NCBI RefSeq assembly: GCF_016887565.1
Contig: NZ_CP069396.1
Coordinates: 13,064,001 to 13,128,000, forward strand
DNA: 64,000 nucleotides
Direction of reading: 5' to 3'
Source: Archangium violaceum
GTDB lineage: Bacteria; Myxococcota; Myxococcia; Myxococcales; Myxococcaceae
Below, in pieces: positions 4,517-31,534 of the stretch. How positions within the stretch are numbered: the stretch's first letter is position 1; each line of letters begins with the position of its first letter. The translations under genes and the position numbers were made by a program. The notes under the pieces are model-generated. The model did not search any database. It was given only the letters and a program-made list of their open reading frames with translations, and was not told where the DNA came from.

Positions 4517-4599
4517 GCCGCCATTGTCGCCTGAGGCTGTGCAACTAGGCACCATCGCGGCGTAGTTGGCGCACGGAAGTGAACGGCCAGGGTGTTGGC

Positions 4600-4720
4600 A
4601 GCACCAACGCCCCGAACTGCTCAGCTTGAGTCCTGAAGCACGGTGCCTGCCTTCCTCCAAGCCATGGGCCGCTGCCAGCACGCGCAGCTTCTCCTCCGCC
4701 GTCCACCTCTTGGGCGCCGC
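4600..4720 (-). pseudogene. Transposase OrfA-like fragment
   Basis: A stretch reading RWTAEEKLRVLAAAHGLEEG on the minus strand matches the N-terminal helix-turn-helix pattern of IS3-type OrfA proteins (RR-W-T/S-x-EEK-L-R-I/V-L). Nothing of the rest of such an element is visible. The 348-bp stretch 4517-4864 otherwise holds no gene; it separates two genes transcribed away from each other. Confidence 0.4.
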
Positions 4721-4864
4721 AGTTGCTTCTGGCCTCTTCGCTAACGCGTGGGTCCAGCGAATTGTTTTCGTCGTGGTGGAGTGAGCGCGCTGCCACATCT
4801 GACGCACAGCGCTGGCCGCTCCGCGTGCGGCATCTGCTAGGGTAGACCGGCGAGGTCACCCCCA

Positions 4865-5749: not shown

Positions 5750-5761
5750 GAGCGCCAGCCC

Positions 5762-7558: not shown

Positions 7559-7597
7559 GGCCCGGGGCTCCGAAGAGGCGGCTCCGAGCTCGAGCGA

Positions 7598-8149: not shown

Positions 8150-8188
8150 TTGTGCTCTCCGGGGAGGGGGCTGCTGCCACGTTCACGG

Positions 8189-8240
8189 CGCTAGCGACAC
8201 GACGCTAGCGACGTGGTCCGCCCGTTGTAGGCGCTCCTAC
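8189..8240. promoter_or_regulatory. Repeated palindromic sites in divergent promoter region
   Basis: The 104-bp divergent region between the zinc-ribbon gene and the XRE gene holds two copies of CGCTAGCGAC (8189-8198 and 8203-8212; the core CGCTAGCG is itself a palindrome) and a further inverted repeat GTAGG-cgct-CCTAC (8227-8240) just before the XRE start. The arrangement suits operators for the adjacent small XRE regulator. No protein-binding evidence exists. Confidence 0.4.
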
Positions 8241-8253
8241 GGTCCGCCGCAAG

Positions 8254-8544
8254 ATGCCACGGCCCCGCCGAAGCCGGCCTGAGCGGGCCGAGCAGTACGA
8301 GAGCGCTGCCTACCGCGACCTACAGGCGCGGCTGGCAGCGGCCGTACGGCGTCTCCGCGAAGAGAAGGGCTGGACGCAGGAGGAGGCGGCGCACCGCTGT
8401 GGCATGACGACTCGCCTCTTCCAGCGCGTGGAGGGGGAGGACGTGAACTTGACCTTCACCTCACTCGCCCGCCTCTGCGAGGGCCTTGAGGTGGATGTGG
8501 TGCAGCTCTTCAAATACCCAAGCAAGGCCCACGCGGACGAGTGA
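8254..8544 (+). CDS. XRE-family transcriptional regulator
   Basis: A 96-residue single-domain helix-turn-helix protein. The HTH lies at about 25-85: '[48 protein letters not shown]', matching the Cro/C1 fold (first helix, T-Q-E-E-A-A turn, recognition helix, then the conserved L-x-x-L-x-x-x-L-x-V-D). The start is ATG at 8254 with no strong ribosome binding site. It is followed after 137 bp by the repeat-tail operon and could regulate it as well as itself. Confidence 0.85.
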
Positions 8545-8681
8545 TGCCCCAAAGCATGGACTTGTTCTGCTGAGCATGGTCCCGGTGCGACTTATCGCCG
8601 AGTCCTCGCACATCATTACTGGCAAAAACCATCGAAATATGCCTATAAGTGGCCGAGTAGGTATCCGACACCGAGGGCCGG

Positions 8682-9509
8682 ATGGCGAAGCGCTATGTGG
8701 GTGCACGTAAGATTTTCGAGCAACATGTACCCAGTAAATTCATCGACGACTGGCTGAGACTCTTGGTCAAACGCATCAAGCGCGCCAAAGAGTTGGTGAG
8801 CGGGTCGATGTCCCCGGAGATGGCCCGGGATGCCCTCCCCCATTTTCGTCGAGGCCTCATTGAGGACCTACTCTTCCATCTGGTCGGGCTGCATGGAGGA
8901 GAAGCGCATCGAATGCCCAATGCGTCCGACAACTCGAAGCACACCGAGGGCATATTTGGTCCGGTTCTTCTGACTGTGCACGCGGTTCGGGAGTTGAGAG
9001 AACTGCCTCGCTACGCAATTTTTCGTGAGGGGTTGACCCACGAGTCAGCACAGGGGCGCTTCTACTTCATGGAGGAAACGCCGTCGCGCCCTGACAAGGA
9101 GAGGCCGTCTGGAGTTTACGCCCAGTTGCTCTATGGTCCAGTGGATGAGAGGACCGGTTTTCCTGCTTTCGCTAGGATTGCGTTTCCTCTCCCGGGTGGT
9201 CGCGAGTTGTTCACGGAGTCCATAGACCTCACCGCGCGGCTGTCACAGCTCCTTTACCGGCAGATCGCGGAGGAGGTCATCGGCGATGAGCTCCAGATGA
9301 ACTTGGCGGCCCCGCAGAAGGTTGGGGAGGAGGTCATCGGCGATGAGCTCCAGATGAACTTGGCGGCCCCGCAGAAGGTTGGGGAGGAGGTCATCGGCGA
9401 TGAGCTCCAGATGAGCGTTTCGACTCAGCAGCATGATGAGGAGATCATTGACGATGAACTCCAGATGAACCTGTTTGCCCAGAAGAAAGAGGGGCAGGGT
9501 GAAGGATGA
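8682..9509 (+). CDS. Unknown protein with four tandem 19-residue C-terminal repeats
   Basis: A 275-residue protein with no family I recognise. Residues 1-195 look like a folded alpha/beta domain (KFIDDWLRLLVKRIKRAKEL, a helix; later 'SGVYAQLLYGPVDE' and 'AFARIAFPLPGGRELF'). Residues 197-271 are four near-identical copies of EEVIGDELQMNLAAPQKVG; the last two diverge (SVSTQQHD; EEIIDDELQMNLFAQKK). The start is ATG at 8682 with GAGGG 5 bp upstream. Its stop overlaps the start of the XRE-ImmA/IrrE gene (ATGA at 9506-9509), so they are translationally coupled. G+C is visibly lower than in flanking genes, suggesting acquisition by transfer. Confidence 0.8.
   Translation: MAKRYVGARKIFEQHVPSKFIDDWLRLLVKRIKRAKELVSGSMSPEMARDALPHFRRGLIEDLLFHLVGLHGGEAHRMPNASDNSKHTEGIFGPVLLTVHAVRELRELPRYAIFREGLTHESAQGRFYFMEETPSRPDKERPSGVYAQLLYGPVDERTGFPAFARIAFPLPGGRELFTESIDLTARLSQLLYRQIAEEVIGDELQMNLAAPQKVGEEVIGDELQMNLAAPQKVGEEVIGDELQMSVSTQQHDEEIIDDELQMNLFAQKKEGQGEG
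9270..9494 (+). repeat. 57-bp in-frame tandem repeat, four units
   Basis: Units at 9270-9326, 9327-9383, 9384-9437 (54 bp, second half diverged) and 9438-9494. The first two are identical in DNA, which points to recent duplication. Each unit encodes the constant E-E-x-I-x-D-E-L-Q-M core. Confidence 0.95.
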
Positions 9510-10750
9510 AACTTGGGACTCCTGGCTTCGTGCGTACGCGCCTGATAGAGGCGCGGGAAGCACGGGGCCTCACTCAGCTTGCGCTTGCCGACCAGGTGAC
9601 TGGATTGACGCAAGAAGTGACTCGACTGACACGGTCGGGCATTGCCAGCTTCGAACTCGGAGATAGCACTCCTCGCCCAGAGACACTCACGCGCATTGCC
9701 ACAGTGCTTGGCTTGCCCGAGCGGTATTTTTTTTGGCCGGATAATGCACCAAAGCCGAGCACGACATTTTGTCGCGCACCCCGTTCGGTCTCTCCCATTT
9801 TGAGCACGCGCGCAGATCGCCAAGCCAAGTGGGCAGGTGATGTCGCGAGTGAACTCTCTGGTGTGATGGGTCTCCAGAAGGTGGATTTCCCCAAGTTCGA
9901 TATTCCCAACCCAGAAGCCCTTACCGGTGAGCGCATCGAAGAGTTGGCTACCCAGGTGCGAAGATACTGGGGACTCGGGGATGGCCCCATCAGCAACGTC
10001 GTAAAGTTGCTTGAAAATAAGGGCGCTATTGTCGTGCGTTGCGAGCTTGGAGAGCCACGGCTGGACGGTCTTTCTCATTGGCGCGGTGAGAGGCCGACCA
10101 TCATGCTGGCAGCAGATCGCGGTTCAGGAGCTCGCTCGCGATTCGATGCTGCACATGAATTGGGTCACCTCATTCTCCACCGAGCGGTGCCTGCAGAGCG
10201 ACTCAGGAATGGAGCGGACTGGCGGCTCTTCGAGGACCAAGCACACCGTTTCGCGGGTGCATTTCTCTTCCCGCAGAGCGCATTTATGGAAGAGGTGTTG
10301 CTTGTGGACCTCGACGCTCTTCAGCCACTGAAGCTGCGCTGGAAGGTCTCCATCAAGATGATGGTCAAGCGGGCAGCCACGCTCGGGCTAATCCCCCCAG
10401 AGCGTGAACGGCACTTGATGGTGAACTACAACCGTCGAGGCTATCGGCTAAATGAACCGTTCGAGAACGCCGTGGAGGTAGAGAAACCACGATTGCTGAA
10501 ATTAGCTATCGAACTGCTTGTGAATGGAAGGGGACCTGATGCGGCATTGGACCTCCTTCCGTACCCACTAAGCGATTTGGAGCGATTGACGGGGATCTCC
10601 CCCAACCTTTTCAGCAAAAATCATGGAGCCGTAGTGAGTGACGTAATTGTACTGAGCTTTAAAACACCATCGGAACCACCATCAGAGCCAACGCCAACTC
10701 GACATGAGCGCGGCACGCTCGGGGAGATCGTTCCATTTCCCCGTCGATGA
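9506..10750 (+). CDS. XRE-ImmA/IrrE metallopeptidase (DUF955)
   Basis: A 414-residue fusion: N-terminal helix-turn-helix (about residues 8-75: 'REARGLTQLALADQVTGLTQ ... IASFELGDSTPRPETLTRIATVLGLPERYFF') and a central ImmA/IrrE zinc peptidase with HELGH at about 216 inside FDAAHELGHLILHR, preceded by PTIMLAA and followed by 'QAHRFAGAFLFPQSAF', the usual second helix carrying the third ligand. The C-terminus is a helical tail. Known relatives cleave a repressor (ICEBs1 ImmA, Deinococcus IrrE) or act in toxin-antitoxin-like pairs. Here the coupled partner is the repeat-tail protein, the obvious candidate substrate or toxin. An insertion (GLTQEVTRLTRSG) lengthens the HTH turn. Confidence 0.9.
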   Translation: MKLGTPGFVRTRLIEAREARGLTQLALADQVTGLTQEVTRLTRSGIASFELGDSTPRPETLTRIATVLGLPERYFFWPDNAPKPSTTFCRAPRSVSPILSTRADRQAKWAGDVASELSGVMGLQKVDFPKFDIPNPEALTGERIEELATQVRRYWGLGDGPISNVVKLLENKGAIVVRCELGEPRLDGLSHWRGERPTIMLAADRGSGARSRFDAAHELGHLILHRAVPAERLRNGADWRLFEDQAHRFAGAFLFPQSAFMEEVLLVDLDALQPLKLRWKVSIKMMVKRAATLGLIPPERERHLMVNYNRRGYRLNEPFENAVEVEKPRLLKLAIELLVNGRGPDAALDLLPYPLSDLERLTGISPNLFSKNHGAVVSDVIVLSFKTPSEPPSEPTPTRHERGTLGEIVPFPRR

Positions 10751-10774
10751 CGGCAGCTCATATGTCCGTGACAT

Positions 10775-12019
10775 TCACGGCCCCCCGTCCATGGTGGCCC
10801 GGAGAAGCTCGCCAATGCCCTCGAGCAGCCGGTAGTACATGTACTCCGGCACTGGGCCGAAGGCCTTGAAGGTGGAGGCAATCCGCTCCACCTGCGCCCG
10901 CGGCCCGTGCACCAGCAGCGCGAGGAAGCCGTACGCAAGGTGGACGAGCTGCACCATCCGCTTCAGCCCCGTCCACGTGAGGGCGCGGACCATCTCCAAC
11001 TTGAAGCCCTGCTTCAAGAACCTGTTGGCCTCCTCGATGCCCCACCGCTCCAAGTAGATGTCCACCACCCTCGCCGCGTCCTCCTTCGTCTGGACGTCCT
11101 CGGTGGTGAGGATGACGAGCGGCTTGAGCCCTATGCCCTGGGCGACGACGAGGGAGTAGCGCCTCTCGCCCAGCTTTCTCTTGGAGGGGCGGCCCCCGGA
11201 AGTGTACTTGGGCAGGTGCACGTCTCGGACGAAGCCGAGTTTGAGAGACTGCCTCCTGCCCGTGATGTCGGGGCGGTGGTACTTCGTGCGGTGGGTGTGC
11301 GGCTGCGGCAGCAACTCCACCAGCTCGCGCACCTTCATCTTCCCCTCAGGGGTGTGGACGAAGCGGTTGTTGCTGAGCTTGACGCGCACCGCGTAGGAGA
11401 TACCGAGCCCGTCGAGGCGCTCCAGAAAGACGCGTCCGTCGAAGCCGGAGTCGAACACCCAGAAGGCGTCCTCCGGGACGTGCGGGGCGACGGTGGCGAC
11501 GGCTTCCAGGGTGGTGGCGTTCTGGCTTTTGAAGCCCGGCGCGGACTGCGAGAAGAGCCGGGAGACGAGCGGAAGGCGCCGGCCTCGCACGCCCACAGCT
11601 TCTATCGAGACGACCTGGTACCCCTTGGCTATCTCGTCCTTGGAGCCGTCGTGGACCTTGTAGAGGTACGGCATTTTCCGGGCGCGGGACTTGGCGATGT
11701 CGGTGAGGTCCACGGCAATGACGGGCCGCGGGTAGCGCTCGTCCCGGAGGATGGGGGCCACGAGGCGCAGGTAGTCCTCCTCCACGGCGGCGTCGTCGTA
11801 GCGCTTGTTGGCCAGGTTGCGCGAGAGGCGCTTCTCCGTGTGAATGAGGCGGGAGTCCTCCCTCAGCGCCCGGCCGATTTGAGAGAGGAGGACGCTCCTC
11901 TTGTCCACGAGCCCGAAGAGGGCCTCGCGCAGAAAGCGGCGGCACGGCTTGTACAGCCGCCCTCCCACCCTCTCCACGTAAGCGTCGAAACGCTCAGCGA
12001 TGGACTTCTCGCGAGGCAC
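10775..12019 (-). CDS. IS4-family transposase
   Basis: A 414-residue DDE transposase. First Asp in AVDLTDIAK, second in FDSGFDGR, and the IS4 signature Y-(2)-R-(3)-E-(6)-K is complete in YLERWGIEEANRFLKQ. The start is GTG at 12019. The protein appears intact and full length. No convincing terminal inverted repeats were found by eye at 10750-10775 or 12020-12070, so the element ends are not called. It may be a solitary domesticated-like or recently trimmed copy. Confidence 0.9.
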   Translation of the reverse strand: MPREKSIAERFDAYVERVGGRLYKPCRRFLREALFGLVDKRSVLLSQIGRALREDSRLIHTEKRLSRNLANKRYDDAAVEEDYLRLVAPILRDERYPRPVIAVDLTDIAKSRARKMPYLYKVHDGSKDEIAKGYQVVSIEAVGVRGRRLPLVSRLFSQSAPGFKSQNATTLEAVATVAPHVPEDAFWVFDSGFDGRVFLERLDGLGISYAVRVKLSNNRFVHTPEGKMKVRELVELLPQPHTHRTKYHRPDITGRRQSLKLGFVRDVHLPKYTSGGRPSKRKLGERRYSLVVAQGIGLKPLVILTTEDVQTKEDAARVVDIYLERWGIEEANRFLKQGFKLEMVRALTWTGLKRMVQLVHLAYGFLALLVHGPRAQVERIASTFKAFGPVPEYMYYRLLEGIGELLRATMDGGP

Positions 12020-12787
12020 ACCTCTCCCGACGCTGGACTCGTGCGCCGAAGGTGCCTACGTTCCCCGTGTCCCCTAGCAAGGACGGGAGCAGGCATTCCA
12101 GTGCCGGTTCCAGCTGTGAATGGGTAGGCAGGGCTGTTCCAGCAGCTCCGCCGCCCGGAGTGAGGGTCGGACTTTCCAGGTCCGGCCCTTTTTCTTCGCC
12201 CGTCTCCTTCGGCTGCACCTCCTCAGTGCCAGGCCCTCAGCCCCGTGTTTTTGCCGAACGGCAAGCTCTCGTGGCCTCAGTGAGCTCCGTGCCAACCCCA
12301 CTCACGCGGTAGCCCACCACCAGTTGCCCCCGAAGATGGGGACGCCGCACTCCACGTCAATAGCCGTCTATTATTGAACGGCAGCGCGGAAGCCGCATTG
12401 CTGACACCACGCCCCTCGCGGCCTGGAGCGACTGCACGGCGCCGCGCAGAAGAGCGCACCCGGGCCTTCCAGGAAGAGAGGAGTGGAGACCCTTACGCGT
12501 AAGGGCAGCGGAGAAGAGGCGTCAGCGCTCGGCCGCAGCACGCAGAGTGCCGGGGGCGCACGACGCAGGAGGGAAAACGGGAGGGGAAGCGGGCTCACCA
12601 CTGCAGTTGGAGAGCTTGCCCGAGAAAGGCCTCGCCCCTGCCGCAAAAAATGACACTCGCAATTCGAGTCAATTACTTACATTTCGGTACCGACATCCAT
12701 GTAGTGGAATTGGAGGGGCGCCCCGGCGTGGAATGAAACCTCCCTGGGTCAGGCGCCGCGGCGGGTGCGGCTGGCCGCGGGCGGCTC

Positions 12788-18464: not shown

Positions 18465-19455
18465 GAGCTCGTTTCAAAAATGGACCTGAGAGGTCAGGTA
18501 ACATGCCCTGCCTATTCAGGGCCATTTCGTAAATGGCGCTCAAGCACGCGATAGAGAAGGAGGCAGTGGCCAAGGCGAAGGAGTGCCAGGTGCATCTGTG
18601 GGTTCCGCTCTTCGCGAATCCGCAGGCGTTTCATCTGGTGGAACCAGTCCAGGGAGCGCTCCACCACCCAGCGATGGCGTCCCAAACGCTCCTTCGACTC
18701 CACGCCTCGGCGGGCGATGCGGGGAACGATGTGGCGCTTCCGTAATCCCCGGCGGGTATCGGCATAATCGTACCCCTTGTCGCCGTGCCCTTTCGCCGGA
18801 CGCCTGCGTGGCCTGCCTCGTGGCCCCTTGATGGGGAGGATGGCGTCGAGGAGCGGCAGCGCCTCGCGCTTGTCGTGCACGTTGGCGGCCGACAGCAAGG
18901 TGGCCAGCGGCAGGCCCCGGCGGTCTACGACCAGGTGGTGCTTGCTGCCCGCCTTTCCTCTGTCCGTTGGATTCGGGCCTGTTTGGGCCCCCCTTTTATC
19001 GCCCGTAGGCTGCTGGAGTCGAACGAGGCCCGGCTCCAGTCAATGAGCCCCTTGTGCCCCAACTCGTTCAGCAACACCCGCTGGAGCTTCTCGAAGACTC
19101 CTGCTCGGCTCCACTTTCGCAGCCTCCTCCAGCACGTCGCCCCGCTGCACCCGAACACCTCGGCTGGCAGGTCTCTCCAGGCGATGCCCGTCCTGAGCAC
19201 GAAGATAATGCCCCGCAGGCACGCCCTATCGTCGCGCAATGGACGACCTCTTCTCCCTTTGCGGCGATGTCGTGGCAGCAGCGGCTCCACCCTCGCCCAC
19301 AGCTCGTCCGGGACCAGTTCGCGCCTCATGCTTGCGAGGATGAGCACCAGGTACGTAGAGGGAAGTCTGGATACCTCTGCGGTTCATTTATGAAACAATC
19401 CCGGGGAGGCAGGTCAGATGACCTAGGCTCCCTGGTCCATTTTTGAAACGAGCTC
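18465..19455 (-). mobile_element. IS5-family insertion sequence, IS1031-like, complete
   Basis: 991 bp, bounded by perfect 22-bp terminal inverted repeats starting GAGCTCGTTTCAAAAATGG (18465-18486 and 19434-19455) and by a TCA target duplication (18462-18464, 19456-19458). TIRs beginning with GAG and a TNA target are typical of the IS1031 group of the IS5 family. The transposase runs on the minus strand. It has inserted into a lipoprotein gene. Confidence 0.92.
18512..19329 (-). CDS. IS5-family transposase, two frames joined by -1 frameshift
   Basis: The upstream frame (19329 to about 18990) has 'RRELVPDELWARVEPLLPRH', FVLRTGIAWRDLPAEV and the first catalytic Asp in SFDSSSLRA. The downstream frame (about 18993 to 18512) has 'GSKHHLVVDRRGLPLATLLS', the second Asp in HGDKGYDY, and the Glu region RHRWVVERSLDWFHQMKRL. 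The switch is by -1 at the run AAAAGGGGGG (minus strand; 18988-18997), a typical slippery sequence for IS5 elements. Both frames are otherwise uninterrupted, so the product is probably functional. Confidence 0.85.
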
Positions 19456-21181: not shown

Positions 21182-21496
21182 TCACTTCCTGGTGGGATCC
21201 GCGCCCGGGGGTAGACCCTCGACGAGGAGCATCTCCGTGTGCGTACACGCCTGCCGGAGGGCCTTGGCCGCGGCGTACTCGGGAGAGGCCCACCAGGCGC
21301 GGGCCTGCTCGGTGGAGGGGAACTCCAGGATGACGAAGCGCTTGGGGTGCCACGAGCCCTCGAGCGCCTCGGTCGCGCCGCCGCGCACGAGGTAGAGACC
21401 GCCATAAGCGGCGATCGCCGGCGGAGCGAGCAGCTTGTACCGCTCGTAGGTCTCCGCGTCCTTCACATCGATCTGCACGACCACATAGGCAGGCAT
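21182..21496 (-). CDS. DUF1330 family protein
   Basis: A 104-residue dimeric ferredoxin-like protein: 'MPAYVVVQIDVKDAETYERY' opening, 'AAYGGLYLVRGGATEALEGSW' and 'RFVILEFPSTEQARAWWASPEY' are all DUF1330 signatures. The family (related to ABM/EthD folds) has no established reaction. It lies 20 bp downstream of the large ATPase and could be the last gene of that operon or a separate unit. Confidence 0.85.
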   Translation of the reverse strand: MPAYVVVQIDVKDAETYERYKLLAPPAIAAYGGLYLVRGGATEALEGSWHPKRFVILEFPSTEQARAWWASPEYAAAKALRQACTHTEMLLVEGLPPGADPTRK

Positions 21497-21516
21497 TCAC
21501 TTCCCTTTCGTCGCAA

Positions 21517-24500
21517 TCAGGAGCCGGTGCGTCGGGCCTCGGCCTGGGGCAGTGTACGGGCGGCGAGGCGCAGCAGCTCATCATCCGGAATCTGCTCGGT
21601 GGAGAGCACGGACGGGTCGGCCTTGACGGGCTGCACATGGCCCGCGTTGACGACGTGGAAGTGGCCGGTGGCCTGGCCGGGGATCTTCGCGGTGAAGTCC
21701 ACGCGGGCCTCGCTGAGCATGGGCTTCATCTTCTCGAGCGAGTTCTTCTCCCGCACGCGGCCGACGAACCAGGAGCGGATGGTGTCACGGCACTTGTAGT
21801 CGAAGTCACCGGGGCTCTGGGTGGCGAGCATCAAACCCAGACCGGCCGAGCGCGCACGCCGCAGCAGGTTCTCCATGGGCTGCTTGGTGGCGGGCTGCCG
21901 GGTGGCGGGCAGGTACATGTCGGCCTCGTCGAACATGAGCACGGCCTGCAGGCCACTGGAGGGGTTGCGGCCGAGCCAGCGAGACACCTCGATGAGGAGC
22001 TGGGACACCCAGAAGAGGACGCGGTCGGTATCTCCGAGGAACTTGGTGCTGATGACACTCAGGCGCGTCTTGCCGGGGAGCGCGTGGGCACCGCGGCCGA
22101 GCAGCAGATCCATCTCGAGCTTCTCGCCGCCGCTGCCCAGCAGGGCCTCGTTGTTGATGCGCAGCGTCTCGAGATCCTGCACGAGCCTGTCGAACAGCTT
22201 GATGTCGAGCCTCCCCACGGCGTTGACCAGCCGAGGATCCTTCTCGTCGATGAAGTAGACGAGCTTCTCCAGGGTGACGCCGGCGGGGGAGAGCTGGACG
22301 AGCTGATCGATGGCCTGGATGAGGATGGTGCGCAGGGACTTGTCGCGCCCGGTGTGCTTGTAATTGAGCATGCCGCCGAGGGCGTCACCCGCGAGCTGGG
22401 TGGCCTGCTTGCGATCGAACTCGGGCAGGGAGTCGAGCCCATCCGGGACGATGGGGATGGCGAGCGGGCGGCCATGGGGGTGCCCGGGGGTGAAGAGGGC
22501 CACGTCGAGCCGTTCACGCAGCAGGGCGCGGCGCTCGGAGCGGCGCGGATCATCGAGCTGGCGTGACCAGAGGGTATCGGTGGCGTAGCCGGCGAGGTCA
22601 CCCTTGCGGTCGATGAGGATGGCGGGGACGCCCTGGATCAGCAGCTGCTCCACGGCGTTGAGCGCGACCGTCGTCTTGCCACTGCCGGTGCCGCCGAGGA
22701 ACGCGGCGTGCTGCATGAGATCGCCGGGAGAGAGGAGGACGGAGTCCTTGGAGAGACTGTCCAGCTCGCCGATGCGCAGGGGCTCCAGCTTCCGGGCAGG
22801 CGCCGGGGGAACGGGCGCGGGCTGCACCGGAGCGGCGGGCTTCGGCGCGGTGCGGATCGCGGGGAGCGGCTGGGCGGCCTGCGGTGCGGTGGTCTGCTGG
22901 ATCGCGGGAGCCGGACGCGCCGCGGGACGCAGACGATCCAGATCGAGGATGTCACGCAGCGCCTTGATCTGCGTGAGGGGCCGGGCCGAGCGCAGCCAGG
23001 CGGCGAAGTCGGCGCGGGACTCGTGGCGCCCGCGGAAGTCCCTCAGCGCGAGCAGGGTGCGGTGATCGCTGTCCTCGATCACCGAGCGGCGCCCACCCTG
23101 GCTGATGAGCCGGCCGAGCTCCTCGGCGGCCTGGGTCTTCGGGTTGTTGGGGAAGGCGGTGGTGCGGACGACGACGGGGGTGCGGCCCTTCTTCTCCTTG
23201 CGGGCCTGTTCGATCTGCCGCGCGAGCGCCCCACCCTGCGGCCTGCCATTGCACAGGGCGACGTGGAGCTTCCCGTCCCCGGGAGAGACCTCCACGTGGA
23301 TGGACTCACCAAGAGTCGTGGCCTCGAAGCGGTGCCCGCTGTCCACCTCGTCGGTGCTGGCACGCAGGGCCCAGGCGAGGAGCACCGCCAGCTCGGAGTC
23401 ATCATCGGGCGGCGAGCCCTTGTACCCGGCGCGGAAGTCGTTCCAGAGCTGGTCCAGAGCCGAGCTGATCGGCTGGGGATGCTGGGTGATGCGCTGCTCC
23501 ACCTTCCCGGGCAGGTCCTCCACGAGGGGGAAGTGCTCGGGGAGACGGCCCTCGCGGATGGCGCGCTCGCGGTAGCGGCGGCACTCGTTGAGCACGTCGC
23601 GGGCACGCATGCCAGCGAGGGCCTCGAAGCCCTCATGCGGGAAGGGGTACGTGGGCTCCGCCGCGTCGAAGGGCGCGTTCTCCTGGTCGTAGAGGTACTC
23701 GAGGCGGCGCTCGGCGATGAGCCGGGCCTCCTCGGCGGTGCGCAGGCTCTGCAGGATGATGGGCGCGGGGTCCAACAGGATGCGATCCAACATGGGCCGC
23801 GTGAGCTGCGTGTTCATGCTGTCCCAGAAGTCGCGCAGACAGCTGATGACGATGAGGGACGAGGGGACCCGGTCCGCCAGATCGCAGATCGTCTGCATGG
23901 CGCGCCGGAAGGGCATGCCCGCGTCCTGGGGCTCGTAGATGTCCTCGAGCTGGTCCACGCACAGCACCAGCGAGTGCCCCAGCGCCCGCATCAGCCGGCC
24001 GAGGTGCTCCACCATCTTCTTCGGATCGTCATCGTGGATGCGGGGCACCATCCCGCCGAGCACCTTGCGATCCGGATCCGAGAGATCCTCGCAGCGCAGG
24101 TACTTGAGGACGCGGCTCTTGATCTTCGGCTCGTTGCGCTGGAGGTAGAGGATGGCGCGCATCAGATCCAGATCGATGTCCGTGAGCTCGGGCAGGGAGA
24201 TGAGCTCGTCGGTGGCGTCGCTGATGATCTGATGAACGTCCTCGACGTCCGTCTCGTGCTGCGTCAGGCCAGCGGCCCACTTGCCACAGCGGGAGAAGAG
24301 CGCGCTGGAGAGCTTCATCAACCCGGAGCCGGGCTGCGAGGGCTCGCAGTAGGGCTGGTCGAGCGAGTCGATGAGGTTGGCGAGGACGTAGCGCCCGTAG
24401 TTGGGCGTGGCCGTCGTCATCTGCATGTAGCCGACGAAGCCCAACGACTTCTCGTGCACGCGGGCGCGGAAGGCGCGCACCAGGTGCGTCTTGCCGCAGC

Positions 24501-24717
24501 CGGACTCGCCGAGCAGCAGCAGGATGCGCCCCGAGTCCAGGCCGGGCGGCGTGGTGGCGCGGGTGAGCAGACGCTCGAAGGAGGTGCGCGCCTCCTGATG
24601 CACATGCTCCACGTCGAACGGGTCGGGCCGCCAGATCTCATGGCGGTGCTGGATGGAGTGGAAGACCTCGGTGCGATCCGAGAGGAATGCGGCGAGACGG
24701 AGATCGGGCTGGCTCAT
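21517..24717 (-). CDS. Tandem-ATPase protein: AAA domain plus HerA/FtsK-like domain
   Basis: 1066 residues, apparently soluble. N-terminal AAA ATPase (about 35-360) with Walker A GESGCGKTH at 70-78 and Walker B in LVLCVDQLEDIY near 260. The middle (about 400-640) is charged and holds a Pro-rich spacer (AAPVQPAPVPPAPARK). The C-terminal HerA/DUF87-like motor has Walker A GGTGSGKTT near 672-680 and Walker B LMFDEADMYLPA near 929, then 'RRARSAGLGLMLATQSPGDF' (sensor-type motif), as in HerA, VirB4-like and DptH proteins. Predicted to bind and move along or pump DNA. It is the third gene of a minus-strand operon with a winged-helix-like protein and a nuclease, 34 bp downstream of the former. Confidence 0.85.
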   Translation of the reverse strand: MSQPDLRLAAFLSDRTEVFHSIQHRHEIWRPDPFDVEHVHQEARTSFERLLTRATTPPGLDSGRILLLLGESGCGKTHLVRAFRARVHEKSLGFVGYMQMTTATPNYGRYVLANLIDSLDQPYCEPSQPGSGLMKLSSALFSRCGKWAAGLTQHETDVEDVHQIISDATDELISLPELTDIDLDLMRAILYLQRNEPKIKSRVLKYLRCEDLSDPDRKVLGGMVPRIHDDDPKKMVEHLGRLMRALGHSLVLCVDQLEDIYEPQDAGMPFRRAMQTICDLADRVPSSLIVISCLRDFWDSMNTQLTRPMLDRILLDPAPIILQSLRTAEEARLIAERRLEYLYDQENAPFDAAEPTYPFPHEGFEALAGMRARDVLNECRRYRERAIREGRLPEHFPLVEDLPGKVEQRITQHPQPISSALDQLWNDFRAGYKGSPPDDDSELAVLLAWALRASTDEVDSGHRFEATTLGESIHVEVSPGDGKLHVALCNGRPQGGALARQIEQARKEKKGRTPVVVRTTAFPNNPKTQAAEELGRLISQGGRRSVIEDSDHRTLLALRDFRGRHESRADFAAWLRSARPLTQIKALRDILDLDRLRPAARPAPAIQQTTAPQAAQPLPAIRTAPKPAAPVQPAPVPPAPARKLEPLRIGELDSLSKDSVLLSPGDLMQHAAFLGGTGSGKTTVALNAVEQLLIQGVPAILIDRKGDLAGYATDTLWSRQLDDPRRSERRALLRERLDVALFTPGHPHGRPLAIPIVPDGLDSLPEFDRKQATQLAGDALGGMLNYKHTGRDKSLRTILIQAIDQLVQLSPAGVTLEKLVYFIDEKDPRLVNAVGRLDIKLFDRLVQDLETLRINNEALLGSGGEKLEMDLLLGRGAHALPGKTRLSVISTKFLGDTDRVLFWVSQLLIEVSRWLGRNPSSGLQAVLMFDEADMYLPATRQPATKQPMENLLRRARSAGLGLMLATQSPGDFDYKCRDTIRSWFVGRVREKNSLEKMKPMLSEARVDFTAKIPGQATGHFHVVNAGHVQPVKADPSVLSTEQIPDDELLRLAARTLPQAEARRTGS

Positions 24718-24751
24718 CGGGAATCCCTTGCACCCGCGAGAGAGGAAGCGA

Positions 24752-25807
24752 CTACAGGGCGATGAAGTGGAAGGTGGCGCCGAGGTAGCGCGTCTCCGAG
24801 TCGGCGACGTCCGCCGGATCCATGGCCTCCACCAGGTCGGCCCGGCTCAGCGAGAGGAACCGCTCGCGGTTGGCCGCGATCAGCCTGTCCTTGAAGCTCT
24901 TCTCGTCCAGGCCCTGGAGCTGGTCGCGCAGGGAGCGCCAGACGTGGGAGATGAAGATCTTGTCCTCGCCGAAGCGCCCGCTCGTCGAGGCCTTCGCCGC
25001 CTCCCGCACCCGCTCGGCGAAGCCGCGCAGGTCCTCCTGCTTCGGCTCCGAGTCGAAGAGCGGCGGCTCGGGAGGAGCGGCGAGCTCGTTGCGCCGCGCC
25101 GGGGAAGTGGAGGGAGCCGTGGGGGCCTGGGTGACGGGCTCCGAGGAGGGTACGAGCCAGGAGCGCATGGCGGCCAGACGGAGGCTGTCCGCGTCCGAGC
25201 GCCGGGCGCCGACGCTCTTGGCCGCGAGCTGCCGCATGGCCTGGGTGGGCTCGGCCTCGCGCGAGGCCTGGAGGGCGCGGGCGAGCAGCACGGCCTGCAC
25301 GGCGGCCAGGGTGAAGGGCTTGTCCGTCTCGATGCCGAGCTGCTTCCAGCACAGCGCGTCACGCACCTGGGTGAGGCTCCTGGAGCCAGGAGCCTCGTTG
25401 CCCAGGTGCTTCTGCACGAGCACCGCGCGCATGCCATCGGCGGTGCCGAGCCGGGCCAGGTTGCCGGAGGACGGTGGCAGCTCCAACACCCGCGCCAGCA
25501 GGTGCGTGTTCTTGAGCTTCTTCCAGGAGGTGCCCTCCAGGCGCTTCACCCCGAGCCACGCGAGGGCATGGGTCCGCCCCTGGGAGGTGAGCTCGAGACC
25601 ATTGCGCGCCGTGCGCCGCGCGAGTCCGCCGGCCTCCAGGGCCGCGAGCGTCTCGTCGAGCCGCGTGTTCCACTCGCTGGCGCTCCAGCGGTGCTCGGTG
25701 AACGGCTTCAGCGCGCGAGACAGGTCGCTTCGAGCCCCCTTGCCTTCCGCGCGCGTCGACAGCCACGCGAGCGCCAGCTCACCCAGACGAGAAACGTGCC
25801 CCTCCAT
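24752..25807 (-). CDS. Two-winged-helix-like protein of HerA operon
   Basis: A 351-residue protein in no family I recognise. N-terminal region 'RLGELALAWLSTRAEG ... LAALEAGGLARRTARNGLELTSQGRTHALAWLG' reads like a winged helix. A long helical middle (TLAAVQAVLLARALQASR) and a Pro/Ala-rich spacer follow. The C-terminal 85 residues ('FAERVREAAKASTSGRFGEDKIFISHVWRSL ... RADLVEAMDPADVADSETRYLGATFHFI') resemble a second winged helix with a basic patch. No catalytic motif is visible. It overlaps the nuclease gene by 29 bp and precedes the ATPase by 34 bp, which marks it as an obligate partner, perhaps the DNA-recognition subunit. Confidence 0.75.
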   Translation of the reverse strand: MEGHVSRLGELALAWLSTRAEGKGARSDLSRALKPFTEHRWSASEWNTRLDETLAALEAGGLARRTARNGLELTSQGRTHALAWLGVKRLEGTSWKKLKNTHLLARVLELPPSSGNLARLGTADGMRAVLVQKHLGNEAPGSRSLTQVRDALCWKQLGIETDKPFTLAAVQAVLLARALQASREAEPTQAMRQLAAKSVGARRSDADSLRLAAMRSWLVPSSEPVTQAPTAPSTSPARRNELAAPPEPPLFDSEPKQEDLRGFAERVREAAKASTSGRFGEDKIFISHVWRSLRDQLQGLDEKSFKDRLIAANRERFLSLSRADLVEAMDPADVADSETRYLGATFHFIAL

Positions 25808-27086
25808 GATGATCTACCTCCCCCCGCGAGGGCTCCTTCATGAGGGCCTCGCGTCGTTGCGAGATGACTTCCGAGATAGTGTCGAGGATTTCCTCGAGCC
25901 GCGCCACCACGTCCTGGGCGAGGAAGCGCAGCACCAGATACCCGTGCCGTTGAAGTGCGAGATCCTTGCGCCGGTCGCGCCGGTAGTCCTCCGGATCCTT
26001 GAAGTGATGGTAGCCGTCGATCTCCACCGCGAGCGAGAGCCGACGGGCGAGCAGGTCCACCTCGACCTGCCTGCCCCTCAGGAGGAAGCCCGGTGACGCG
26101 TTGAGCTCGAACAGCCCGTGGGTGGTGGGGTGCTCTCCGAGGCAGGCGTAGAGGAACCGCTCCTCGGCGCTGCGCGCGCGATCCTCGGGCCCGTCTCCCC
26201 GAGAGGGCCGCTGGTGCTCGCGGACCACTTCGCCGAAGAGCGTGAGCACCTCGTCCGACACGCCGTCCCGCGCGAGCCGGGCCAGCGGGGCGGAGAGCTC
26301 CTTCGACGGCTTCACTCCGAGTGCTTCCAGCTTTCGACCGAGTGTCTCGGCGGAAGGAGCGTCGAGCTCGAGGAGGCCCTCGCGCACCATGGTGAGGGCC
26401 TTGGACGCCTCGCCGTGCAGGTAGGCGTCGAGCGTGGGCCGATCCGCGGTCAGGGCGATGACGAGGGAGGGAATGGAGGCACACAGCTTCGAGGCGATGC
26501 GGGCCGCGCGTGCCAGTCCCTCGGCGCCGGAGCCGGTGAGCAGCAGTGCGGGGGCGGTGGCCGGGGGGAGGATCGCATGAAGTGCCGCGAGCGCGCGGAT
26601 GGCGTCCCGGCCACAGGCCTCGAGCACCGCGTCGAGGGGGACACCTGGATTGTGGACAACTTGTGGTTGGAGGAGACACCTGCACACGCGGGTGGAGTCT
26701 CCATCGGGAGCCGAGGGGAGCAGCTCCTGGAGGAGGACGTCTCGCTCGTGGGACGTCTTCGCCTTCAAGCGGGAGGGCAGCTCGCCCGGAGCGAGGCCAG
26801 CGGCCCCACCGAGGAAGTCCGCCGCGGCGGACTCCAGACTTCCGAGGCGTGCGAGCGTCTCCAGCCAGGCGCGGGTGACCTCGACCTCGCTGGTGGCGAG
26901 CACGGTACAGACGGGCCGGTGGAGGGAGTCGAGCCAGCGACGCCAGAGGGAGGAGGCGAGACCGGGAGGGCCTGCGAGCACGGTGAGCGTGGGGATGCCC
27001 TGCTCACGCCGACGCTGATGCCGTTCCAACTCGTGGAGGGCGAAGGCATCGCTCCGTGTGTCGGGTCCGCCAAGGGGCACGGACAC
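25779..27086 (-). CDS. DUF559-like nuclease with degenerate P-loop N-terminus
   Basis: 435 residues from a GTG at 27086. N-terminus has LTVLAGPPGLASSLWRRW, a P-loop-like GPPG turn lacking the GK[ST] signature, so ATPase activity is doubtful. Residues 50-310 are helical with no recognised domain. The C-terminal ~110 residues are a restriction-like nuclease of the DUF559/Vsr group: conserved E in EERFLYACL, D in VEVDLLARR, ExD in AVEIDGYHHF, then 'DRRKDLALQRHGYLVLRF'. It opens the operon with the winged-helix-like gene and the HerA-like ATPase. The combination nuclease + DNA motor suggests a DNA-cutting defence or repair complex (inference). Confidence 0.8.
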   Translation of the reverse strand: MSVPLGGPDTRSDAFALHELERHQRRREQGIPTLTVLAGPPGLASSLWRRWLDSLHRPVCTVLATSEVEVTRAWLETLARLGSLESAAADFLGGAAGLAPGELPSRLKAKTSHERDVLLQELLPSAPDGDSTRVCRCLLQPQVVHNPGVPLDAVLEACGRDAIRALAALHAILPPATAPALLLTGSGAEGLARAARIASKLCASIPSLVIALTADRPTLDAYLHGEASKALTMVREGLLELDAPSAETLGRKLEALGVKPSKELSAPLARLARDGVSDEVLTLFGEVVREHQRPSRGDGPEDRARSAEERFLYACLGEHPTTHGLFELNASPGFLLRGRQVEVDLLARRLSLAVEIDGYHHFKDPEDYRRDRRKDLALQRHGYLVLRFLAQDVVARLEEILDTISEVISQRREALMKEPSRGEVDHHGGARFSSG

Positions 27087-27230
27087 GAGCGTCCTTGAAG
27101 TCGAGGCCCGGCATCAAGGGGGGCTACCCGGGTCCGGTGTCAGGCAGTGGGCATCCCACGATGGAGAGTCGCTCCCTCCACTTCGAGGTCCATCGAGCGT
27201 TTGAGGCATCATCCAGCCAGGGGGGAGTTC

Positions 27231-27524
27231 ATGGGTCAACGCGCCATGCTCACAGCCGCGATGGGGCTGCTGGTCCTGGGAACCGGGTGCCCGCATACCT
27301 ATCGAAAGGGCGGTACGCTCGATCGGGCGATGGAGAAGGACGAGCGGGAGAATCGCCAGCAGCGCAATCAGGAGTTCAGGGAAGAGGCGCTCCGACAAGA
27401 GGTGAAGCAACGAAACAATCAACAAGAGAAGGAGGAGGAGGAAGACGAGGAGAGGATCTGCCCCGATGACAAGGTAGAGGACTGGAATTGTAGGACCCTG
27501 CCCTGTCAGGTGACTTGCAAGTGA
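27231..27524 (+). CDS. Small charged lipoprotein
   Basis: 97 residues. Start ATG at 27231 behind GGGGGGAG. Signal MLTAAMGLLVLGTGC with lipobox LGTGC, then a strongly charged Glu/Lys/Gln-rich stretch (EKDERENRQQRNQEF, EEALRQEVKQ, QEKEEEEDEE) that may be a coiled coil, and a Cys-containing end (EDWNCRTLPCQVTCK). Its TGA overlaps the next gene's GTG (GTGA), so the two are translationally coupled. Confidence 0.75.
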   Translation: MGQRAMLTAAMGLLVLGTGCPHTYRKGGTLDRAMEKDERENRQQRNQEFREEALRQEVKQRNNQQEKEEEEDEERICPDDKVEDWNCRTLPCQVTCK

Positions 27525-28405
27525 ATCGAAGCACTCTCCTTGCCCTGGCTCTTGGGTTCTTGCTCCCGTTACCGCTCGTGTTCGTTGCCGGCACGGCGTA
27601 TCGGGAATCCTGGAATGACTCTCGTTGGAGAGCCGCACAAACGGCTCCCGTATTGCCAATGGAGGAGACCTGGAAGCTGCAGACCTACGGAAAGCACTGT
27701 TCGGGACGTGGGGATTGTGAACATCCCCTCGGGTGTTTGAGCTTCATCCTCGACGAACGCGATGGGCTCTGTACCGACAGCAGATGTCAGACGGACTCAC
27801 AATGCGAACAGGGAGAGACCTGTCAATCATTCCGCACGTTGGATGAAGGTCCTCTGGTTCGTGTGTGCGTGAACCCGGGATTGAGAGCAGAGGGTGAGTC
27901 GTGCGTGCACACGACGGATCGTGAAGAGAAGACCTGCGCACCGGGTCTGCGCTGCAACGAGGGATGGTGTGGCCGCCCCTGCCTGTTGGACGAGCCACCG
28001 GGTTGCCCGGAGGGCTTCTTCTGCCAGGACGGCCTGAATGGACCCTCGTGCTTGCCCACCTGTGAGCGCGGGGTCTGCTCCAAGGGTCAGCAATGTGTCC
28101 GGATGAAGGGCGGCGCCTCGGTGTGTGGCGTGCTGCGTGGGAAGGGATGTCTCAAGAAGGCCTGCCCCGAAGGCCAGCAGTGCGTCCTCGGAGAACCCCT
28201 CCAGACGGATACGGGCCTGGAGATATGGATGTCGTGCGCCCAGTCTTGTGGCACGGACAAGCCCCTTTGCGCTAAAGGCTCGGTCTGTATCCTGGGAGTG
28301 TGCCGCTCCACCTGTGATCCCGAACGGCCAGAGGCCTGCCGTCCGGACGAGCTGTGCCTTTCCTACCCCCGGGGTGCTGGATCCGCTGTGTGCTGGCCGC
28401 GGTAG
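27521..28405 (+). CDS. Cys-rich secreted protein
   Basis: 294 residues starting at the coupled GTG (27521; a TTG at 27515 is also possible). A signal sequence (STLLALALGFLLPLPLVFVAG) is followed by about 30 cysteines in EGF/Dickkopf-like spacing (CSGRGDCEHPLGC, CEQGETC, CAPGLRCNEGWCGRPC, CPEGFFC, CSKGQQC). Such Cys-rich surface proteins are frequent in myxobacteria; their function is unknown. It forms an operon with the preceding small lipoprotein. Lower G+C than its neighbours. Confidence 0.8.
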   Translation: MNRSTLLALALGFLLPLPLVFVAGTAYRESWNDSRWRAAQTAPVLPMEETWKLQTYGKHCSGRGDCEHPLGCLSFILDERDGLCTDSRCQTDSQCEQGETCQSFRTLDEGPLVRVCVNPGLRAEGESCVHTTDREEKTCAPGLRCNEGWCGRPCLLDEPPGCPEGFFCQDGLNGPSCLPTCERGVCSKGQQCVRMKGGASVCGVLRGKGCLKKACPEGQQCVLGEPLQTDTGLEIWMSCAQSCGTDKPLCAKGSVCILGVCRSTCDPERPEACRPDELCLSYPRGAGSAVCWPR

Positions 28406-29522: not shown

Positions 29523-30860
29523 ATGTGGGTCAAGGAACTGATCATTCATAACATCCGCAGCTTCGAGAGGCAGGAGTTCTCCTTCACTCACGAAGACAAG
29601 CCTTACCGCTGGGTGACCTTGCTGGGTGAAAATGGTGGCGGCAAGAGCACGGTGCTTCAGGCACTTGGCCTTCTCATGGCAGGGCCGGAGGGAGCGCAAA
29701 CGTTGATTCCCCGCCCGGTGGGATGGTTACGGGATGAGTCGAAGCAAGGCCTTCTGCACGTTCGCTTTCACCAAGGGAAAAAGGACCCGGGAAAGGCGAA
29801 GAAGCCATCGAAGCTGTTTCACCACGACTTGATGGTGACAGGTAGGAAACCCCTATCTTTGAGGGGCCGGGTTTATACGGAGCCCACCATCGTAGGGTTT
29901 CCCTCACCGCACCTGTCGTGGCTGCGCGAGCACGCCTTCTCCTCAAGGGGACAGGGGTGGTTCGCAGCCGGATACGGCGCCTTTCGGCGTCTGACACGTT
30001 CTCAGCAGGTCATTGTCCCAGCACTAGAGCCCCAGGCGCGTTACACGAACTTCCTCACCCAGTTCAACGAGGACGAGCCCCTCGCGACATTCGAGCGGTG
30101 GATGGTCTACCTCGACTATGTCAGCGCCAAGAGGCGTCAAAGCTCCCGTCAAGCCGAGCGCCAGCGCGACCTGGGCATTAATGCGATCAATAGCATGCTG
30201 CCTAGAGGGACTCGCTTCGATAGCGTAACTGAGCAGGGACGCATCCTCTTCGACGTGGGAGGTCGGAAGGTGCCAACGATCGCGATGAGCGATGGCTACC
30301 GGAGCGTCCTGGCGCTCGCCGGAGATCTGGTCTGGAGGCTCATCCAAGCCTTCCCCAAGAGTGCCAATCCCCTTCATGAGGAAGGGGTGGTGCTCATCGA
30401 CGAATTGGACATCCACCTGCACCCCCGCTGGCAGCGGTACATCGCCGGCTGGCTGCGTGAGCAATTCCCGAAGCTCCAGTTCTTCGTCGCGACGCACAGC
30501 CCCTTCGTGGCCGCCGGGGCCGGGGAGGATGCCCTCACCTTGCGGCTGACACTCGATCAGGGCGTCACCCGGGTGGAGCAGGTGGAGACCCTTGCGGCCC
30601 TCAGCGTGGACGGCATCCTCCAGAGCGAGGCGTTCGGTCAGTTGTCACCCTACTCGCCTCCAACACAGGCCGCTATTGACCGGTATGACGCTCTGGCTCG
30701 CAAGAAGAGGCGCAGCCAGGCCGAGCAGAAGGAATTCGCGCGGCTGCGCGCGTTCATGCAGCAGGCCAGGCCCCTCGGAGGTCCACCTGAGCCGGGCTCA
30801 CTCGATGCGAAGCTGGATGCCTACATCGACAAGGCGCTCCAGGGGAAAGGCCGGGGATGA
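29523..30860 (+). CDS. PtuA-like SMC/RecF-type ATPase of a Septu-type defence system
   Basis: 445 residues. Walker A GENGGGKST at about 35-43, an ABC-signature-like segment AMSDGYRSVLALAGDL, Walker B VVLIDELDIHLHP near 288, and the H-loop ATHSPF. The insert between is short and lacks a long coiled coil, as in PtuA and the ATPases of retron Ec78-like systems. Its final ATGA overlaps the HNH gene (30857-30860). PtuA forms large rings that hold the nuclease in check until infection. No reverse transcriptase is next to it, so it is the stand-alone (Septu) type rather than a retron. Confidence 0.85.
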   Translation: MWVKELIIHNIRSFERQEFSFTHEDKPYRWVTLLGENGGGKSTVLQALGLLMAGPEGAQTLIPRPVGWLRDESKQGLLHVRFHQGKKDPGKAKKPSKLFHHDLMVTGRKPLSLRGRVYTEPTIVGFPSPHLSWLREHAFSSRGQGWFAAGYGAFRRLTRSQQVIVPALEPQARYTNFLTQFNEDEPLATFERWMVYLDYVSAKRRQSSRQAERQRDLGINAINSMLPRGTRFDSVTEQGRILFDVGGRKVPTIAMSDGYRSVLALAGDLVWRLIQAFPKSANPLHEEGVVLIDELDIHLHPRWQRYIAGWLREQFPKLQFFVATHSPFVAAGAGEDALTLRLTLDQGVTRVEQVETLAALSVDGILQSEAFGQLSPYSPPTQAAIDRYDALARKKRRSQAEQKEFARLRAFMQQARPLGGPPEPGSLDAKLDAYIDKALQGKGRG

Positions 30861-31534
30861 TCCGGGTGAGGCGTGGACGCGCGCCCGACGTCCTGACTCG
30901 CAATCGGGCGCGGTGGTTGAGGGACCTCCAGACGGCACGTACGCCGAAGGAGCGCCAGCGCGTCCTGGACAGGTACCGGCACGAGGACGTGAAGGATGCG
31001 CTCGTCACGCTCTTCCACGGCAAGTGCGCATACTGCGAGAGCTCCATCCTGCACGTCGACTACGGACACATCGAGCACTACCGGCCGAAATCGAAGTACC
31101 CGAAGCAGGCCTTCACCTGGTCCAACCTCGTCCTGGCCTGCGGCGTGTGTAACGGCAGCGAGCACAAGGGTGACGAGTTCCCGCTCAAGGCTCAGGGAGG
31201 CCCTCTCGTCAACCCCTGTACCGAGGACCCGGAGCTGCATCTCTCCTTCGAGTACGATCCCGTGACGAGGCTCGCCAGCGTGCGGGGAAGGACGACACGG
31301 GGGGACACCACGGAGAAGTGTCTCGGGCTCAATCGCCAGGATCTGCGCAGACACCGATCGACCCGCGTCAAACAACTCTGGTTCATTGCCCAGCGTGCCA
31401 CGATCGATCCCAACGCGCGGCGCCTGCTCGACGAAGCGGCCTCGGCATCCGAGGAGTACTCCGCGTTTGCGAACCTGCTTCGGGATGCTCTCTTGAAGGG
31501 AATACCGCTCTCGTCCGTCCCGCTGACGAGCTGA
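30857..31534 (+). CDS. PtuB-like HNH nuclease (TIGR02646 family)
   Basis: 225 residues, translationally coupled to the ATPase. The HNH/zinc core runs CAYCES (about 57-62), GHIEHYRPKSKYP (H and the RPK of this family), 'FTWSNLVLACGVCNGSEHKGDEFPL' (second Cys pair and the Asn/His residues). This is the TIGR02646 pattern found in Septu PtuB and in retron-associated HNH effectors. Expected to cut DNA or tRNA when released by the ATPase. The C-terminal helical region (KQLWFIAQRATIDPNARRLL) is normal. Confidence 0.85.
   Translation: MIRVRRGRAPDVLTRNRARWLRDLQTARTPKERQRVLDRYRHEDVKDALVTLFHGKCAYCESSILHVDYGHIEHYRPKSKYPKQAFTWSNLVLACGVCNGSEHKGDEFPLKAQGGPLVNPCTEDPELHLSFEYDPVTRLASVRGRTTRGDTTEKCLGLNRQDLRRHRSTRVKQLWFIAQRATIDPNARRLLDEAASASEEYSAFANLLRDALLKGIPLSSVPLTS

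Follow-up and report, generated by a model that had tools for sequence, protein, structure and literature searches.

An operon of an Orc/CDC6-HerA ATPase, a winged-helix protein and a Vsr-type nuclease in Archangium violaceum: a candidate DNA-capture system

The subject here is a group of three genes, A, B and C, at positions 21517-27086 of a 64,000-nucleotide stretch of Archangium violaceum DNA (the window, meaning that whole stretch). A first look at the letters without database searches, called the sequence-only reading below, had described three minus-strand genes with an overlap of 29 base pairs (bp) between the first two and a spacing of 34 bp before the third. The coordinates of the open reading frames (ORFs) agree: A and B overlap at 25779-25807, B and C are separated by 24718-24751, and ORF calling on the window finds all three frames intact. 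A purine-rich stretch precedes the ATG of B, scans for promoters and terminators gave nothing useful, and C is the only copy found in its 13.2-megabase (Mb), single-contig genome. The genes and the domains assigned to them are as follows.

25779..27086, minus strand: gene A, 435 amino acids, GTG start; N-terminal domain without a named family and C-terminal Vsr/DUF559-type nuclease
25863..26060, minus strand: nuclease domain of A, residues 343-408; DUF559, with E355, D357, H361 and D371 invariant in 54/54
24752..25807, minus strand: gene B, 351 amino acids, ATG start; winged-helix protein, 29-bp overlap with the end of A
25547..25807, minus strand: N-terminal winged helix of B, residues 1-87, from an AlphaFold2 model and fold search
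24758..25030, minus strand: C-terminal winged-helix-like region of B, residues 260-350, from the helix/strand order in the model
21517..24717, minus strand: gene C, 1066 amino acids, ATG start; AAA+ domain, middle domain and HerA motor
23518..24717, minus strand: Orc/CDC6-type AAA+ domain of C, residues 1-400; K76, T77, D255 and Q256 in 58/58
23023..23469, minus strand: middle domain of C, residues 417-565, from the model; helix/strand order like that of an inactive restriction-endonuclease fold
21568..22785, minus strand: HerA-type motor of C, residues ~645-1050; K681, T682, D930 and E931 in 58/58

The largest protein, C, carries two ATPase engines on one chain, and the Walker residues of both are identical in all 58 C proteins aligned. 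Pfam assigns AAA_22 (1.6e-10) and AAA_16 (1.2e-9) as well as HerA_C (1.7e-7) and DUF87 (6.4e-6), and the motifs picked out in the sequence-only reading are all present: GESGCGKTH, GGTGSGKTT and LMFDEADMYLPA in C, and EVDLL...AVEIDGYHHF in A. In a model of C residues 1-600 (mean predicted local distance difference test, pLDDT, 89.3), a fold search made mainly with residues 1-416 gave Orc/Cdc6 proteins in all of its top nine rows, the best being ORC2 of A. pernix (VIA Z 15.5, root-mean-square deviation (rmsd) 3.7, 258 residues); TnsC came next at Z 14.0, and the domain also resembles BrxC (VIA Z 12.5). Directly after the Walker-B aspartate of this first engine all 58 proteins have a glutamine, Q256, in place of an acidic residue, which may mean that ATP is used in a switch-like rather than a processive manner. 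The second engine is a HerA-type motor by its profile match to the HerA structure 8wiv (2e-7) and by its best PADLOC match, mad8 (3.9e-24), which covers residues 666-1032 and so the HerA domain only; this domain also matches the coupling proteins TrwB, TraD and DotL. The earlier description of a two-ring motor therefore holds for the two ATPase domains and is not confirmed for their assembly into rings.

Between the engines lies a domain that may be an inactive restriction endonuclease (REase); in the model, residues 440-518 follow the order helix-strand-strand-strand-helix-strand found in restriction endonucleases; no catalytic lysine was seen there in the alignment, judged by eye. A sequence search of the PDB with this domain matched designed repeat proteins only, taken as spurious. 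Behind it no winged helix was seen up to residue 600, the model placing two short helices at 571-591.

Protein A ends, as the sequence-only reading had claimed, in a DUF559/Vsr-like nuclease domain, matched by Pfam at residues 343-408 with an E-value of 8.8e-9, above the family cut-off; MTES_1575 is also matched. Nucleases of this type (EDxHD) have a conserved E-x-D-G-x-x-H followed by a later D, and in A the corresponding E355, D357, G358, H361 and D371 do not vary across the 54 proteins aligned, so that an active nuclease is predicted. The same pattern is invariant in 18 A proteins of an actinobacterial group introduced below, and a profile of 21 A proteins matches 3hrl (endonuclease-like, E 6.7e-4) and 3r3p (a mobile intron protein, E 0.052) in the nuclease region. 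The N-terminal 300 residues match no family above cut-off. An inactive P-loop proposed for this part was not confirmed, G39 being the sole invariant residue of the stretch, and is at best possible; a paralogous AAA domain finds no support either, a profile comparison of A with C giving nothing (probability 0.5%). Between the myxobacterial and actinobacterial groups, profile comparison aligns A over the nuclease domain only (probability 98.6%), and homology of the N-terminal parts was accordingly not accepted.

For B, Pfam gives nothing above cut-off. Its AlphaFold2 model (mean pLDDT 88.8) has a winged helix at the N-terminus and a winged-helix-like region at the C-terminus, separated by a helical part followed by a disordered one. 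The N-terminal domain resembles MarR/PadR-type winged helices (VIA Z 11.5, rmsd 2.2, 76 residues), so that of the two such regions claimed earlier the first is well founded, and the second looks like one by the predicted order of its elements. Foldseek matches of B to IdeR, MukE/F and JetC all had E-values above 0.04 and were not used.

These three genes recur as a linked unit, which had been both the earlier claim and its proposed check. Compared were 61 Myxococcota loci, namely the window and 60 loci fetched for a match to B from a portion of the matching genomes; L038 and L039 were kept among them though they lack the trio. The order A-B-C is found in 56 of the 61, and in two of these a contig end truncates A. 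Incomplete A proteins (L037, L093) count towards the 56 and are excluded from the 54-protein alignment, just as the partial C of L037 is excluded from the 58. With start codons chosen by script, 40 of the 56 loci have a 14-bp overlap of A with B, and the gap between B and C measures 8-38 bp. The remaining five loci comprise three second copies in genus g6, with B-C and no A, a remnant of B interrupted by a stop codon (L038), and one locus without any of the genes (L039, fetched for a weak B match in genome G053, E 8e-4, that the profile search did not repeat). When 54 loci are compared pair by pair, the identities of the three proteins are closely correlated (0.92-0.96), as expected for genes travelling together, with shared ancestry adding to the correlation, and dN/dS values of 0.08-0.58 (15 pairs per gene) indicate purifying selection on all three. 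By sequence search B was found in 63 of 145 genomes of the order, and by profile search in 64 of 195 genomes and 10 of 90 genera of the phylum; among the genera listed for the family, 7 of 20 carry it.

A very diverged form of the trio occurs outside the Myxococcota. A search of plasmid records with C led to a Tsukamurella record (L094, NZ_LR134464.1) in which genes for a DUF559 protein, a small protein and a DUF87 protein follow in the same order with overlapping ends, the Tsukamurella C being 25% identical to that of the window over its whole length. The locus is an island at 3477-12515, between rplN and rpsQ, that also holds VapB/PIN toxin-antitoxin genes and one for a DEAD/DEAH helicase. 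At least 80 loci came from a scan of genome contigs. The group led by Tsukamurella has 63 loci with L094, mainly from Actinomycetota plus two alphaproteobacterial metagenome-assembled genomes (MAGs), and in 59 of them a protein of ~210 residues, B', is encoded directly before C, the other four having less than 120 bp of upstream sequence. Profile comparison of B with B' gives a weak match in the N-terminal part only (probability 69%). Nuclease A accompanies B'-C in 29 of the 59 loci, among them one alphaproteobacterial MAG with the whole trio. In the group to which the window belongs, two loci each from Planctomycetota (L174, L184) and Cyanobacteria (L177, L186) also have A-B-C. B-C occurs in Verrucomicrobia (L179, and L171, where B lies close to the upstream end of its contig), in Polyangiaceae (L172) and in a MAG of the Planctomycetaceae (L169); in a Polyangiaceae MAG (L173) B and C are fused into a single chain. 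The Myxococcota genomes G159 and G160 are mixed, with A-B-C in L104, B-C in L103 and L105 and B alone in L106. Since the gene order recurs across phyla, the trio is not a chance arrangement. In L158, positions 1792-6996 form an open frame of 1734 residues whose last 200 are B'; this could be a natural fusion or a chance frame in GC-rich DNA.

B-C is the constant core of these loci and A a common, not obligatory, partner, as A is often absent or replaced. On a FastTree phylogeny of 87 C proteins scored for A (present beside 50, absent from 37), its presence changes at least 14 times, an approximate count because several branches are long. Six Myxococcus/Corallococcus loci (L175, L176, L180, L182, L183, L185) and C frames below 900 residues were excluded from this tree, and L170, L171 and L178, where the sequence ends close upstream, were not scored for A. 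The actinobacterial loci L126, L140, L156 and L167 have members of a single gene family 12-40 bp ahead of B', which in L126 is the PADLOC candidate PDC-M02B (1e-123), preceded by PDC-M02A (2.7e-65); there the pair, at 4701-7010, directly precedes B'-C at the position held by A in relatives. The gene before B' in L145 is the candidate PDC-M55B (9.5e-92). In Minicystis (L172, 4956-11348) an EAD5-CHAT gene stands before B and an EAD5-like gene behind C on the same strand, EAD5 matches of genes behind C being below the Pfam cut-off, and in the Polyangiaceae MAG L173 (5720-12452) a caspase-bDLD3 gene follows the fused B-C by 13 bp, again on the same strand. Readings of the gene before B' as HEPN-like (L143) or TOPRIM-like (L145) were made by eye and not used. 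A is present in three of 16 mycobacterial loci and absent from 13; the flanking sequence examined for the A-less ones contains no DUF559-like motif, and seven of the 13 pairs adjoin the same ferredoxin-reductase-like gene, named by eye. An E-x-D-G-like motif in an L167 frame was a chance match. The defence-candidate and protease genes in the place of A suggest an exchange of outputs. They are suggestive and no proof, because close same-strand neighbours are frequent in bacteria and the comparison has no control.

How does the trio relate to described systems? It has no named entry among the matches listed from PADLOC (2023), Pfam and NCBIfam, and a literature search, with preprints and most subscription journals outside its scope, found no described system joining a DUF559 gene to a HerA/DUF87 gene; where PMC7159879 and PMC8195603 bring up FtsK-type ATPases in the passages concerned, it is solely as parts of other conflict systems. 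The earlier claim of an undescribed system holds to this extent for the trio as such. It fails for the list of parts, a near-identical one having been predicted by Rakesh, Aravind and Krishnan 2024 (PMC10853773), whose comparative genomics, in the sections on this class, defines a "HerA/FtsK capture" class with Orc/CDC6 ATPases. Its neighbourhoods are described there as combining two REases, one inactive and the other active and from either of two families, with an Orc/CDC6 ATPase, a HerA/FtsK ATPase and a winged helix, the domains lying in one or several chains, and a subset adds a further protein with 2-4 winged helices. The same sections propose that, while invader DNA is being segregated, transferred or packaged, the motor and its helix-turn-helix partners find their way to it and deliver it to the nuclease (PMC10853773).

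As far as that account of the class goes, three elements agree: an Orc/CDC6-family AAA+ ATPase in C (ORC2, VIA Z 15.5), a HerA/FtsK ATPase in C (HerA_C 1.7e-7, DUF87 6.4e-6, 8wiv 2e-7) and a predicted active REase-type nuclease in A (active-site residues in 54/54). Two more may have counterparts, the inactive REase in the middle domain of C and the separate multi-winged-helix protein in B, with probably two winged helices. The trio differs in having AAA+, middle domain and HerA all on one chain and in using a Vsr/DUF559-type nuclease with its own N-terminal domain. It may also differ in the winged helix that the class is said to have C-terminal to the inactive REase in the Orc/CDC6 chain (PMC10853773), none being seen behind the middle domain up to C residue 600. 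Compared by this published description, the trio is probably a fused, Vsr-nuclease variant of the Orc/CDC6 HerA/FtsK capture class, and not a proven member.

Other systems share less. HerA-DUF4297, in the passages of PMC11291478 and PMC12198126 that describe it, likewise pairs a HerA motor with a nuclease but has two components, another nuclease family and no separate winged-helix gene. DUF4297 is not among the Pfam matches of A, which are DUF559 and MTES_1575. We know of no Orc/CDC6 domain in HerA-DUF4297. DndFGH and DptFGH, as outlined in PMC10853773, also consist of three proteins with a HerA/FtsK motor and winged helices in DndG, but DndH and DndF carry many other domains; the one DndH match, in C of one relative, is marginal (E 0.0099). 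BREX-Related Capture (BRC), by the partial account of PMC12839542 used here, sets HerA/FtsK beside an Orc/CDC6 ATPase and winged-helix DNA binders, and the AAA+ domain of C resembles BrxC; however, none of the 16 window proteins scanned with Pfam matches PglZ, DUF6079, DUF4007, GNAT or TGT. MADS consists of eight linked genes, mad1-mad8. C shares with it an ATPase of the mad8 sequence group, but among the matches listed for the nine window proteins scanned with PADLOC no other mad family appears beyond a marginal mad3 match at a P-loop of C (0.00062), nor was a methyltransferase identified among the 16 scanned with Pfam, and identity with MADS is not supported.

Together, these comparisons lead us to favour, on balance and with limited confidence, the reading that the three genes form a DNA-capture system directed at invaders, a version of the predicted Orc/CDC6-HerA/FtsK class in fused form and with a Vsr nuclease. 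Linkage, intact enzymes, the B-C fusion, correlated identities, the Orc/CDC6 fold and the published class speak for it, as do the patchy distribution outside some genera, the repeated gain or loss of A and, in some relatives, neighbours of B-C that are defence candidates or of cell-death type. On the observed domains, invariant active sites and linkage across phyla a working scheme can be drawn. The winged helices of B would bind or read DNA and position C, in effect recruiting it; the Orc/CDC6 domain of C would load or gate the HerA translocase on the same chain; the HerA motor would assemble as a ring on the DNA and translocate, feeding DNA to A, which would cut it as double strands. B-C would thus be the sensing and motor core and A one of several outputs, and the presumed target would be foreign DNA of phages, plasmids or conjugating cells.

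Could the operon instead be a domesticated chromosomal machine for repair, replication restart or segregation, with HerA as the DNA pump and the Vsr-like nuclease as the trimming enzyme? HerA-NurA pairs have been reported in archaeal end resection, and the AAA+ domain of C is Orc/CDC6-like. By profile search B is present in 27/27 genomes of genus g19 and 16/16 of genus g5, which we infer to be Myxococcus and Corallococcus (an M. xanthus record is among those bearing C). Defence genes are not usually carried by all sampled members of a genus, and this is the chief point against a typical defence role; near-fixation in several genera is compatible with a housekeeping DNA machine. The upstream flank places 35 of the 37 fetched g4, g5 and g19 loci in one group and the downstream flank 34 of the 37 (single-linkage groups; 24/27 g19, 11/16 g5 and 2/2 g4 genomes), which implies long vertical inheritance at one place. 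Purifying selection on A, B and C and the ferredoxin-reductase-like gene shared by seven A-less mycobacterial pairs fit the same explanation. Against it stand the scattered occurrence elsewhere, with B in 7 of the 20 family genera listed, the two copies in some genera with one set lacking A, the gain or loss of the nuclease at least 14 times, and the protease or defence-candidate genes beside B-C in some relatives, so that we consider a chromosomal function unlikely, at a level that still deserves serious weight.

Further observations, besides the fixed presence and shared flank, weigh against the capture reading. A is missing from 30 of the 59 actinobacterial-group B'-C pairs and from the three second copies in g6, and the 8.7-kilobase (kb) contig of L106 lacks C although B has a relative there at 705-1607 (E 2.1e-6). 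Two pieces of the likeness to the published class, the second winged helix of B and the REase-like middle domain of C, are read from predicted secondary structure. No C homolog was found in 50,697 phage records and viral contigs gave 2 weak ones, and B had no match in plasmid records; a phage- or plasmid-borne origin was accordingly set aside. The Tsukamurella C matched three plasmid records, from Tsukamurella, Nonomuraea (11.85 Mb) and Methylobacterium (a 1.57-Mb replicon); the first looks chromosomal because it carries ribosomal protein genes, and the last may be a true plasmid copy.

Two other explanations are improbable. The trio might be a part or relative of a larger named system (MADS, Dnd/Dpt or BREX-related capture) whose other genes lie elsewhere, a view encouraged by mad8 as best PADLOC match of C (3.9e-24) and by the BrxC-like AAA+ domain (VIA Z 12.5). 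However, the mad8 match is confined to the HerA domain, no other component is among the matches listed for the window proteins, the rest of the genome lying outside these scans, and the gene order is kept across phyla without such partners; we give this little credence. As little is due to a DNA-mobility or uptake module, in which motor and nuclease would process DNA during the transfer or integration of mobile elements. The likeness of the HerA domain to the coupling proteins TrwB, TraD and DotL of conjugation and secretion, the island position of the Tsukamurella copy between ribosomal protein genes and an IS4/5 transposase 2.2 kb from C would fit it, but no relaxase, integrase or transfer gene turned up in the scan of 16 window proteins or in the annotation surrounding the Tsukamurella copy, and the Myxococcaceae have shared the locus over the long term.

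Around the operon the window holds the following.

29523-31534, plus strand: Septu pair PtuA (2.2e-167) and PtuB (1.8e-60), a complete pair by PADLOC
27515-28405, plus strand: gene for a Cys-rich protein of 296 amino acids, no Pfam match
21182-21496, minus strand: DUF1330 gene, 20 bp behind C on the same strand
18512-19347, minus strand: IS4/5-type transposase split over two reading frames, 2.2 kb from C

The Septu pair noticed in the sequence-only reading is real and lies 2.4 kb from A. It is not part of the system, because homologs of the window PtuA/PtuB occur in just 2 of the 60 fetched loci, beside the operon of genome G045 (L074) and, weakly similar, in L081. The DUF1330 gene is probably a bystander, with homologs in 3/60 fetched loci, one of them ~1 kb away. 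Compared with L074, a block of 21.2-28.1 kb (21184-28090) has ~74% DNA identity and both flanks ~91.5%; identity jumps from 57% to 95% at ~28.4 kb and drops behind the DUF1330 gene at ~21.5 kb, and part of the Septu region is also lower, at 77-82%. The operon is 72-77% identical to that of the other three genus members compared. Since the Cys-rich gene shares the divergence, and at ~48% identity diverges faster than the operon, the divergence is not specific to the trio; allele replacement by recombination, or fast local change, would explain it. The alignable flank of L074 stops at 18333 and resumes at 21184, the stretch with the IS4/5 element and a DUF2379 gene not being shared.

A bolder extension of the capture reading, which we hold doubtful, would make B-C a general sensor-motor platform that detects or seizes foreign DNA and takes plug-in outputs; it is no less doubtful that the Vsr nuclease, the EAD-CHAT and caspase proteases and the PADLOC candidate modules are such outputs. 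In the Myxococcus lineage the platform would be a fixed barrier and may be one reason for the great rarity of myxobacterial plasmids, which is noted in the passages of PMC11705834 and PMC11237760 on the subject. Such a barrier would not be absolute, since myxobacterial plasmids exist: pMF1 in M. fulvus, pSa001 and one in M. stipitatus, as given in PMC11237760. The literature search found no description of the fused Vsr-nuclease form with an exchangeable output, nor of its universality in sampled Myxococcus; the class itself had been predicted before. For that class the operon would be a compact and intact candidate of just three genes, carried by all sampled species of the genetically tractable genus Myxococcus, so that the capture hypothesis could be tested directly by gene deletion. 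With caspase- and CHAT-type genes next to an unvarying B-C core, a DNA motor would be connected to outputs of the cell-death type, and the rarity of plasmids in myxobacteria would give the capture reading a concrete prediction and make the fixed barrier a testable, if bold, idea.

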